A stretch of DNA of 9,925 nucleotides, taken from NCBI GenBank assembly GCA_003557545.1, contig PWOD01000158.1, positions 1 to 9,925 on the forward strand, written 5' to 3'. The translations under genes and the position numbers were made by a program. Below are positions 6,533 through 9,925 of this stretch, piece after piece. The first letter of the stretch is position 1. Each line of letters begins with the position of its first letter. Below the pieces are notes generated by a model. That model had not been told where the DNA came from and ran no database searches. It worked only from the letters and a program-made list of their open reading frames with translations. The stretch comes from a bacterium. GTDB lineage: Bacteria; T1Sed10-126.

Positions 6533-6555
6533 GACTGCTAACTATTACAGCAGTC
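6533..6555 (-). terminator. Possible flagellin terminator hairpin spanning its stop codon
   Basis: GACTGCT (6533-6539) pairs with AGCAGTC (6549-6555) around a 9-nt loop; the flagellin stop codon (complement of 6545-6547) lies in the loop. On the minus strand it is followed by CGGTTTAAAAG, a poor U-tract. It could be a weak terminator or a 3'-end stabiliser. Confidence 0.4.
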
Positions 6556-8083
6556 GGAGAGCCATTTCTGCGTCGGTATTTGCCCGCCCCAGAACATTGA
6601 TCGCATTCTGTGATATTATCTGGGCACGGGTCCGATCTGTGATTTCCTTAGCCATATCTGCGTCACGTATACGACTTTCTGCCCGTTGCGAAGTTTCATT
6701 CTGACTGCGAGCAAAATCCAGGGCATTCTCCAGCCTTTTTTCAGAAGCGCCCATGCTGGACCGAATTTCTGACAGCCGGGCCGCGGCCCGCTCGATCCGC
6801 TCGATTGATCTATTGGCCCGCTCCCGGGTAGTTAAATTAACACACCATACTCCCAGCGAGCGAGAATCAACTCTCTCAAAATCAACCCGGATAATGTCAT
6901 CTCGATTTGCTCCCACGTGAAATATTGCTTCTCCAACCCCCTCTCCTACCGGAGTAATTCTCCCTGTATTAAAAAACTCCCTAATAGCAGCCTCTTCGGA
7001 GGACCCCGTGAAATCAGCCGCCTCAACTGCCTGGGTCCAATCAAGATCCATTATTGAATCAGGAATTGTTCCGGGGGGTAATTGGGGAAACCCCAGGGCA
7101 ACACCAACCGAATGAATTGCTCCCCAGCGGAAGCTATAGGTATCAGGATCGTCATCTTCGCCCCAGTTAAAATTGGGATTAAACTGGATATTTCCAGCCT
7201 TCAACATCCGCTCATTTATCCGATCTGGATCATCGGTTGTCCAGGTACGGGCCGCAGAAGGTTCATTGGGATCAGCCATAAAGCGAAACTGTCCAGCATT
7301 TCCTTCCGCAGTAAAATTATTCCGCGGACCACTATCCAAAGGTGTTCCATTGGAATCAGCAGTAGCCGGTGGAGCCTCATCAGTTTCATCCATCCAATCC
7401 ACATGGAATGAAACACCTGAGGCTGCTTCAAATCTGTCTGACCACCACTGAAAGGCCTTATCCAGATGTTCCCTGATATCCACAATATTGTCATCCAATT
7501 GATCAAGATCTGTGGCTGTACCGGCCGGTGTCTCAGTTCCCGGAGCCACAATGCTGGCCGAAATATTTATTACCCCGCCACCGGAGGCCATAGCATCCTC
7601 AATCTCCTGCCATGTATCGATATTACCCCATAATGACAGGTCTGCTTCCTGTATTCCGCCATGGAGCAACTTGATCCCATTGAATTCGGTGGCATCTCGC
7701 AACCGGTTTACCTCATGTACTATACTGCGCGCTTCATTATGAGCCAGTTCCCGATCAGCATCAGTTAATGTATCGGAAGCAGCCTGAACACTCAGTTCTT
7801 TTAATCGATTTAATTTGTTTTGTATCTCATCATAAGCGCTCTCTGCGGTTTGAATCATTGAAATACCATCCTGGGCATTCTTCTGCCCGCGATTCAATCC
7901 ACTCATTGTGCGGCGCAAAGTTTCTGAAATCGATAACCCTACAACATCTTCCTGAGCTCGATTAATTCTTAAACCACTGGAAAGCCGTCTTTCTGCCGTT
8001 TCTCGTATGGTTTCATTACGGTTTATATTTCTCCGGGCTAAGCCGGACATCACATTATGATTTATTCTGAACAGATCACTCAT
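6545..8083 (-). CDS. Flagellin with a degenerate matrixin-like metalloprotease domain in its variable region
   Basis: This 512-residue protein has the two conserved flagellin ends. Residues 1-140 are D0/D1 (RINHNVMSGLARRNINRN, then RLSSGLRINRAQEDVVGLSI, DGISMIQTAESAYDEI, TEFNGIKLL). Residues 380-512 are the C-terminal D1/D0 (GANRDDIIRV, SSMGASEKRLENAL, SRIRDADMAKE, ending ANTDAEMALRLL). Between them, residues about 195-375 follow the plan of a matrixin (M10-like) protease. The first helix is LDKAFQWWSDRF (207-218). Next come the strand GNIQFNPNFNWG (297-308), DPDTYSF, the active-site helix HSVGVALGFPQ (324-334), a Met-turn SIM (343-345), and a final helix ending FFNTG. The zinc motif HExxHxxGxxH keeps only His324 and Gly331; Glu, the second His and the third His are Ser325, Val328 and Gln334. 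Catalysis is therefore unlikely. ATG 8083 follows GGAGGT (complement of 8094-8099); an upstream TTG in frame overlaps that site. A single Cys414 is unusual for flagellin. Confidence 0.95.
   Translation of the reverse strand: MSDLFRINHNVMSGLARRNINRNETIRETAERRLSSGLRINRAQEDVVGLSISETLRRTMSGLNRGQKNAQDGISMIQTAESAYDEIQNKLNRLKELSVQAASDTLTDADRELAHNEARSIVHEVNRLRDATEFNGIKLLHGGIQEADLSLWGNIDTWQEIEDAMASGGGVINISASIVAPGTETPAGTATDLDQLDDNIVDIREHLDKAFQWWSDRFEAASGVSFHVDWMDETDEAPPATADSNGTPLDSGPRNNFTAEGNAGQFRFMADPNEPSAARTWTTDDPDRINERMLKAGNIQFNPNFNWGEDDDPDTYSFRWGAIHSVGVALGFPQLPPGTIPDSIMDLDWTQAVEAADFTGSSEEAAIREFFNTGRITPVGEGVGEAIFHVGANRDDIIRVDFERVDSRSLGVWCVNLTTRERANRSIERIERAAARLSEIRSSMGASEKRLENALDFARSQNETSQRAESRIRDADMAKEITDRTRAQIISQNAINVLGRANTDAEMALRLL
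6959..7501 (-). other. Matrixin-like pseudo-protease domain within flagellin
   Basis: This stretch encodes residues about 195-375 of the flagellin. The diagnostic block is 7082-7114 (residues 324-334, HSVGVALGFPQ), which aligns position by position with the metzincin HExxHxxGxxH. The preceding IQFNPNFNWG matches the matrixin pattern I-FD----W. SIM follows at the usual short distance, as a Met-turn should. The overall layout supports homology; the domain boundaries are approximate. Confidence 0.75.
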
Positions 8084-8381: not shown

Positions 8382-9925
8382 TCAACGAATAATAGTTATT
8401 CGACCGGAACTGACTCTATTATTACCCTGAATTAAATAAATATAAGTACCTGATGCCAAATTCGGTTCCCAGTGAATAAATCCTCCTGGATTAACCGTCT
8501 GGCTGGCTGATTTTAACTGCCGACCGGCAAGATTATATATTTTCAACACAACGTCATTTCCATAGTTTGCCGGCAGAATAAAGTTAATGACATTATTTTT
8601 GTCCTGCCTGAAAGGATTGGGGTATGAATATACCTCTTTAATTCTCTCGGTTATCCCCAACATATCAAGCGAATCAGCATCTGTTATATGCCAGCGAGCG
8701 GGCCCAGAATCTATTTCCCAACTTAAAAATGGATAACCGTCATTGTGCTCTGTTCTAACCAGACTTATCGACCATCTATCATCCAGATAACGATGAATAT
8801 TTTGCATTTCAGCACTATTTTTTCCCTGACCACCAGCGCTATTCAACTGCTCTGAAGTTTCAACATCCCAGACTGATCGAGTTACAATGCCAGCTCCCGT
8901 TCCGATTAAGCCGCCATATTCACCGATTGCCTCAACCTGGCCTCGAGCATAAGAATAACTTACCGAACCGGAGTTTTTCCCGACCAGACCACCAACCTTT
9001 TCTACTCCCTCAACCCTACCTACCGCATAGGAGTTTTCCAGTTCACTCTGCTGATCATTATATCCCACAAGACCACCAATTTTTTCCTGGCCCTCTACAT
9101 CTCCCCGGGCATAACTCCAAATAACTTTTCCCTGCCGGTTCCAGCCAATTAAACCTCCTACATAATCAATCCCTGAACTATTACCCTCAGCATATGACAT
9201 TGTGATATTACCAAACCAGTTTCTCCCCACTAATCCTCCTACCTCATCTACCCCACTGACCTTTCCTGTCGCATAGGAGTTAGAAACAAGACTTTGAGAC
9301 CCCACCCTGCCAACTAAACCTCCTACCCTGTAATCCCCTTTAACCGTCCCGGTTGCGAAGGAACTTTCAACAGTAGAACCCGGATGATTATATCCAACTA
9401 ATCCCCCTACCTCACTCACCCCTTCAACTGAGGCTGAAGAATAATTATCTTTTACTTTACTAACCCGGTAGTTATAACCAACCAATCCACCTAGATTGAT
9501 TGTGCCCTCAACTGCCCCCCCTACAGAGCTACCGATAACCCGACTATTCCGATAATTATATCCAACTATCCCCCCTACCTGCTCTGCTCCAGATAGTTCA
9601 ACCTCTACCTGAGTATTAATTACCTGACTATTAACCCCGTTATAACCAGCCACACCACCCAGATTATTCTGTCCAGATATTTTACCTTTAAGAACTATAT
9701 TGGAAATTTTTTCACCATTATACCCAATCACTCCACCCACATAATTTCTCCCCGTAATATCCAGTTCAGACAACCGCAGATCAGTTACTGTACAACCAGC
9801 AGAGCTCACCCCGAACAGTCCGATGTAATCGCTGTCCGGCCGGTTGATATACAGACCGGCAATAGTCCTGCCGGCTCCATCAAACTGCCCGGCAAAGGGG
9901 TCGTCCTCGTCACCGACTGGCAGCC
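8382..9925 (-). CDS. GLUG-repeat surface/secreted protein with C-terminal sorting-like domain (N-terminus outside window)
   Basis: The frame is open from the right edge (9925) to the TGA at 8384-8382, giving about 514 residues; the true start lies beyond the window, and GTG 9809 is only an internal codon. The upstream part reads FAGQFDGAGRTIAGLYINRP then YIGLFG, a typical lead-in to GLUG repeats. Eleven repeats of 26-28 residues follow, with core GGLVGYN...SYATG.V.G. The last runs into SVWDVETSEQLNSAGGQGKN and AEMQ, the usual GLUG closing block. The final 84 residues (YSYPNPFRQDKN, VVLKIYNLAGRQLK, ASGTYIYLI, SSGRITIIR) match the C-terminal beta-sandwich of type IX secretion tails or FlgD Ig-like domains. 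GLUG proteins are secreted or surface-bound, some with adhesin- or peptidase-like roles. Which export route is used here is unknown. Confidence 0.88.
   Translation of the reverse strand, partial: LPVGDEDDPFAGQFDGAGRTIAGLYINRPDSDYIGLFGVSSAGCTVTDLRLSELDITGRNYVGGVIGYNGEKISNIVLKGKISGQNNLGGVAGYNGVNSQVINTQVEVELSGAEQVGGIVGYNYRNSRVIGSSVGGAVEGTINLGGLVGYNYRVSKVKDNYSSASVEGVSEVGGLVGYNHPGSTVESSFATGTVKGDYRVGGLVGRVGSQSLVSNSYATGKVSGVDEVGGLVGRNWFGNITMSYAEGNSSGIDYVGGLIGWNRQGKVIWSYARGDVEGQEKIGGLVGYNDQQSELENSYAVGRVEGVEKVGGLVGKNSGSVSYSYARGQVEAIGEYGGLIGTGAGIVTRSVWDVETSEQLNSAGGQGKNSAEMQNIHRYLDDRWSISLVRTEHNDGYPFLSWEIDSGPARWHITDADSLDMLGITERIKEVYSYPNPFRQDKNNVINFILPANYGNDVVLKIYNLAGRQLKSASQTVNPGGFIHWEPNLASGTYIYLIQGNNRVSSGRITIIR
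8385..8636 (-). other. C-terminal type IX-tail / FlgD-Ig-like domain of the GLUG protein
   Basis: The stretch encodes the last 84 residues. It opens with the hallmark YPNPF, then has beta strands with INFILP, VVLKIYNLAGR, SGTYIYLI and ITIIR. In Bacteroidetes such domains direct type IX secretion; similar sequences occur in other phyla as FlgD-like Ig folds. Confidence 0.7.
8871..9749 (-). repeat. Eleven tandem GLUG repeats (coding)
   Basis: Each unit spans about 26-28 codons with the core GG(L/I/V)(V/I/A)G(Y/R/W/K)N, followed by a serine/tyrosine-alanine segment and (V)xG. The units differ clearly in protein sequence, so the array is old rather than a recent DNA expansion. The last unit is degenerate (GGLIGTGAG). 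Confidence 0.85.

Follow-up and report, generated by a model that had tools for sequence, protein, structure and literature searches.

Flagellin variable regions accommodate a wide range of inserted domains, of which 61 kinds have been counted (PMC5595980), and the closest described counterpart of the gene considered here is flagellinolysin, a flagellin with an active, gluzincin/M9-like protease domain in which HExxH and the distal Glu are kept in all members (PMC5595980, PMC7643111). The survey of enzyme-domain flagellins stressed the conservation rather than the loss of catalytic motifs, and metzincins are not among its ten most frequent inserted domains (PMC5595980). Loss of catalytic residues from a metzincin is known elsewhere, in the pseudoprotease ADAMs such as QLLGLNVGLTYD (PMC11266112); in ADAM2, 11, 18, 22 and 23 (M12) the scaffold and Met-turn are kept, the zinc ligands and general base are lost, and the proteins act by binding (PMC11266112).

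The window analysed here (the whole stretch of DNA under study, 9925 nucleotides) comes from a draft assembly of 2.15 Mb in 239 contigs, 92 % complete, whose phylum is represented by two genomes in the set compared. It encodes a flagellin which, like flagellinolysin, has a metalloprotease-type domain in the variable region; flagellinolysin is displayed on the filament, as the window insert presumably would be. However, the window insert is metzincin-like, its zinc motif is lost and the flagellinolysin profile does not match it. With bacterial matrixins (PF00413) it shares the order of helix A, strands, an active-site helix with G and A-L-G, Met-turn and last helix, but the domain lies inside a flagellin, is without the Glu and two zinc His residues, has an extra loop of 33 residues and falls below Pfam detection. 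As in the pseudoprotease ADAMs, motif residues are lost and the Met-turn is kept, on what would be a metzincin scaffold; the ADAMs, however, are animal membrane proteins of another metzincin family, and the likeness is one of parallel loss, not kinship. The literature searches, by title or abstract, turned up no other flagellin bearing an insert of matrixin or metzincin type. We consider it probable that the window insert is a matrixin-derived pseudoprotease, inactivated before its gene was duplicated and displayed on the filament for binding or as part of an outer lattice, the fold, capture, display and binding being the inferred parts of this reading.

The flagellin gene and its insert

The gene at 6545-8083 on the minus strand encodes an intact flagellin, its reading frame open and undamaged, in which the Pfam models of the two halves of the conserved core score far above their cut-offs (PF00669, 116.8 bits against 26.6; PF00700, 60.1 bits against 23). 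The ATG at 8083 is the likely start, as read from the sequence, since it is preceded by GGAGG and the encoded MSDLFRIN matches the N-terminus of one of the genome's core flagellins; a search for a sigma-28 promoter gave no exact match. Export of the product and its assembly into a filament are predictions from the gene. A second flagellin, here called the paralogue (contig C94, 1146-2738, 530 aa), carries a homologous insert that is 52 % identical to that of the window. The features of the window gene are as follows.

6545..8083, minus strand: flagellin coding sequence, 512 aa from ATG
to 8104, minus strand: listed ORF for the same flagellin from a TTG start, 519 aa
7658..8065, minus strand: Flagellin_N, N-terminal half of D0/D1 (PF00669, E 1e-33)
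6548..6802, minus strand: Flagellin_C, C-terminal half of D1/D0 (PF00700, E 2.7e-16)
6932..7657, minus strand: insert at the D1 tip, ORF residues about 150-391, delimited against the 299-aa flagellin of contig C195, boundaries approximate
7550..7573, minus strand: candidate first strand (sI), VINISASI, aligned to ELTYHM/IKYYI of viral matrixins and a strand in a low-confidence model
7418..7474, minus strand: helix A, REHLDKAFQWWSDRFEAAS, containing AFQWW, 74 % identical in the paralogue
7394..7417, minus strand: strand sII, GVSFHVDW
7295..7393, minus strand: 33-residue loop, DET..APPAT..SNGTPL.SG..NN, 67 % identical in the paralogue
7256..7294, minus strand: strand sIII region, GQFRFMADPNEPS, aligned to matrixin GDIRI/GDFRV
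7124..7195, minus strand: strand sV and loop, GNIQFNPNFNWGEDDDPDTYSFRW, aligned to matrixin GDIHFDS..W
7082..7114, minus strand: degenerate zinc motif HSVGVALGFPQ, compared column by column with 33 matrixins; HTVGLALGWPQ in the paralogue
7037..7057, minus strand: Met-turn, SIMDLDW; TVMDLDF in the paralogue
6956..7003, minus strand: C-terminal helix, SSEEAAIREFFNTGRI, a helix in both low-confidence models and in a position that fits matrixin DD..GI..LY

Only about 20 residues separate the D1 halves in the genome's own core flagellins. At the same spot the window flagellin has about 240 extra residues; its customary outer region is thus replaced, in the normal position, by a large insert. The initial annotation had described this region as a catalytically dead, matrixin-like domain at ORF residues 202-382. 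The insert extends further in both directions (about 150-391), and VINISASI (7550-7573), a plausible first strand, falls outside the narrower interval. The elements it had named, an AF--W helix, IQFNPNFNWG (7160-7189, minus strand), HSVGVALGFPQ, SIM (7049-7057, minus strand) and a short C-terminal helix, are all present. The 33-residue loop is longer than in most of the aligned matrixins.

Set against the matrixin consensus HExGHxxGxxH, the motifs of the window insert and of the paralogue retain the first His, the two Gly and A-L-G, and both inserts keep the Met-turn, with the Met of SIM or TVM 11 residues past the end of the motif. The Glu is replaced by Ser or Thr, the second His by Val or Leu and the third by Gln; the catalytic Glu and two of the three zinc His residues are thus gone, as first reported for the window copy, and the paralogue has suffered the same losses. 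At the compared columns both inserts read H, S/T, G, V/L, G and the matrixins H, E, G, H, G (33 of 33, with the third-ligand His in 32 of 33), a uniformity that is no evidence in itself, the 33 having been collected partly by this very motif. HExxHxxGxxH is lacking from both inserts and the Met-turn is found in both; HExxH does not occur anywhere in the window flagellin or in the paralogue.

Duplication, constraint and possible role

In a tree of the core domains the window flagellin and the paralogue are sisters (support 100/99), and the pair stands apart from the core flagellins of its own genome and of the sister genus. As both copies are without the same residues and share the Gln, the simplest history of the sequences would place the loss of the catalytic residues, and hence the inactivation, before the gene duplication. 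Since the sister gene carries the same dead domain, the insert probably owes its retention to a binding or structural role and not to cutting. Between the two genes dN is 0.42 for the insert and 0.44-0.49 for D0/D1, a comparison that, with synonymous sites saturated, speaks to amino-acid constraint and not to dates. Flagellin variable regions usually diverge faster, whereas this insert has a dN like that of D0/D1, which argues that it is under constraint. The helix A, sII, 33-residue loop, sIII and sV segments are 62-75 % identical between the paralogues; identity drops to 0 % in the loop behind the zinc motif and to 25-27 % in two other stretches.

Decay of the insert as a pseudogene was considered and ruled out by the open frames, the two copies and a pN of 0.32 between the inserts, well below the pS of 0.83, the synonymous differences being saturated.

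We propose that in a single event a flagellin in this lineage captured the domain of a secreted matrixin (metzincin, M10-like), that the captured domain lost its catalytic Glu and two of its three zinc His residues, and that the gene was then duplicated and both copies kept. The insert would no longer cut. Once the subunit was exported and polymerized, many dead-protease folds would project from the filament, each rooted at the D1 tip, and the retained scaffold with its conserved extra loop would most likely bind something, be it a polymer, a surface or adjacent outer domains. By analogy with dead metzincins elsewhere, whose retained scaffold and Met-turn serve for binding, and with flagellin outer domains being displayed in many copies, the insert would most likely function as a multivalent surface for binding on the filament; a role in filament architecture comes a close second. 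The initial annotation had suggested a binding or adhesion surface, a decoy for protease inhibitors or a structural cap as possible roles. Taken in its strictest form, as a metzincin domain captured, inactivated once, duplicated and constrained as a filament-displayed binding domain, the first pseudoenzyme flagellin, the proposal seems to us evenly poised between right and wrong. If it is true, a constrained, duplicated, dead protease domain would mean that enzyme folds can be taken up by flagella to serve as binding or structural surfaces, and it would offer a natural support for the filament display of large domains. Enzyme-domain flagellins have so far been described as active (PMC5595980), and a dead protease insert would differ from them, being, if so, the first example of a pseudoenzyme flagellin.

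A possible rival on function only, to which we give limited credence, is that the matrixin-derived domain is kept for filament architecture, contacts between outer domains stiffening or sheathing the filament with no external ligand involved. In its favour, one report describes outer domains of other flagellins that dimerize and modulate motility in viscous media (PMC8931119), and the best-conserved parts of the insert are helix A, sII and the 33-residue loop (67-75 %). The data do not separate self-contact from ligand contact, however, and neither insert-bearing gene belongs to the main flagellin cluster, a location that points to special subunits of the filament more than to bulk ones.

The initial annotation had also envisaged active relatives in the same genome, for which the searches gave no support. 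The only insert-bearing paralogue proved to be dead as well, and no paralogous flagellin with an intact HExxHxxGxxH was found in the genome; at 92 % completeness, the genome gave no PF00413 match that would indicate an intact M10 protease, and its sole HExxHxxGxxH pattern match lies antisense to a glycine-rich repeat gene and represents no credible protein. An active relative could still lie in the roughly 8 % of the genome that may be missing. A scan of a genome-contig collection returned flagellins, with the degenerate motif in none of the ORFs found. Beyond the window genome, searches of viral contigs, plasmids and 386 genomes yielded no insert homologue; the search of the 386 gave four weak matches, two of which were inspected and were seemingly due to chance.

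Evidence for a probable matrixin ancestry

Matrixin profiles were built from bacterial matrixins of other genomes, with 23 and then 33 sequences. In profile-profile comparison the insert pair matched the 23-sequence profile over a stretch running from helix A to the Met-turn (P 5.9e-5), and the 33-sequence profile with P 4.9e-6 (Prob 86-88 and P 3-5e-6 across profiles); a matrixin subset from which the nearest-looking sequences had been left out gave P 3.4e-6 over 123 columns. The alignment is in register at the motif and the Met-turn, and with several profiles it spans 117-123 columns from helix A. Across a whole library, with no hypothesis formed beforehand, a P of about 4e-6 from one pairwise comparison would fall short of significance, and here it was the window sequence itself that prompted the hypothesis. 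We regard the profile evidence for matrixin kinship as good but not conclusive; it lends support to the initial reading of a flagellin with a matrixin-like, catalytically dead insert, and favours that reading over flagellinolysin (P 0.67).

An alternative that we think unlikely is that the insert is simply an outer domain of the usual flagellin kind, evolving fast and unrelated to metzincins by descent, its likeness to the active-site helix, the Met-turn and the IQFN strand a coincidence seen by a motif-seeking reader. Many unrelated domains, with 61 kinds counted, occur in flagellin variable regions (PMC5595980), and no curated library recognizes the insert: Pfam, NCBIfam, PHROGs and PDB sequence searches gave no match, and the Peptidase_M10 profile (PF00413), which the initial annotation had proposed for searches with this segment, gave none up to E 10. 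A two-sequence viral matrixin profile likewise gave no match (P 0.088), and the paralogue scored as a single sequence was weak (25.6, P 0.0011). Against coincidence, the insert pair scores 34-41 with the matrixin profiles, and the maximum in 600 column or block shuffles is 27; a reversed template gave no match. With the motif masked the signal persists, at a score of 25.5 against a maximum of 18.8 in 200 shuffles. Among 822 ORF queries the window flagellin ranks third with the matrixin profile, above every ORF without an HExxH motif and below only a HEVAH matrixin-like protein and a flagellin with a HELTH insert; the paralogue ranks just below a second flagellin with a HELTH insert. In the paralogue, moreover, the glycines of the helix, A-L-G and the Met-turn are conserved, whereas the intervening loops diverge (0 % to 27 %).

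AlphaFold models of the insert, a point for the ordinary-domain alternative, have a pLDDT below 40, too low to be usable (36.7 for the insert alone and 38.2 with three matrixin rows added). Fold searches with these low-pLDDT models gave no significant match: with the unseeded model there was no metzincin among the PDB matches, and with the matrixin-seeded model the eight best PDB matches were metzincins (MMP8, PAPP-A, MMP9), at E 0.29 or worse and biased by the seed.

The idea that the metzincin-like scaffold supports an active enzyme with other ligands, for example His331 with an Asp or Gln, strikes us as highly improbable: in its favour, both paralogues retain the motif's first His and its final Gln, but Ser or Thr stands in place of the general base, Val or Leu has replaced the second His, the post-motif loop has no identity between the copies, and no other conserved His/Glu set is visible, HRHAH of the paralogue being absent from the window copy. 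The insert as a degenerate flagellinolysin, a gluzincin-type protease flagellin minus HExxH, is close to refuted, for although the architecture is equal and the NCBIfam flagellinolysin model NF033876 matches weakly, its 43.7 and 49.6 bits are far below the cut-off of 205 and have their best stretch in the C-terminal portion of the flagellin (positions 323-384 and 308-384 of the 384 in the model), a flagellinolysin profile, shallow at 4 sequences, gives P 0.67, and the Gly-x-x-x-Gly spacing and Met-turn are of the metzincin type.

Other flagellins and neighbouring genes

A genome of the sister genus (G001, contig C100) encodes a solitary flagellin of 500 aa (L057:1459-2958). Its insert, about 200 residues long (NASFED...GNYAVRF), is a different one; it resembles a jelly-roll or carbohydrate-binding type domain and has no Pfam or PDB sequence match. 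As this solitary flagellin also carries a large insert, and a different one, decorated extra flagellins may be a habit of the lineage to which the window belongs.

Flagellins with HEMTH, HEMVH or HELTH inserts were found at L126, L127, L130, L043 and L051. Those at L126, L127 and L130 are far below the NCBIfam flagellinolysin cut-off, from which it appears that divergent proteolytic flagellins are probably under-annotated. One open frame, L125:1153-4200 (1016 aa in the locus), runs from a flagellinolysin-type flagellin into the in-frame start of a second flagellin and is a tandem flagellin fusion.

The window genome has FlgK-like, FlgL-like and FliW-like genes and several flagellin genes; at 92 % completeness it gave no match to FliD_N (filament cap), which may reflect missing sequence or a divergent cap. 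Just upstream of the window flagellin, on the same strand, 8382-9809 (minus) encodes a protein with 7 GLUG repeats passing and a weak Por_Secre_tail-like C-terminus (E 0.00066, under the cut-off), likely a secreted repeat protein.
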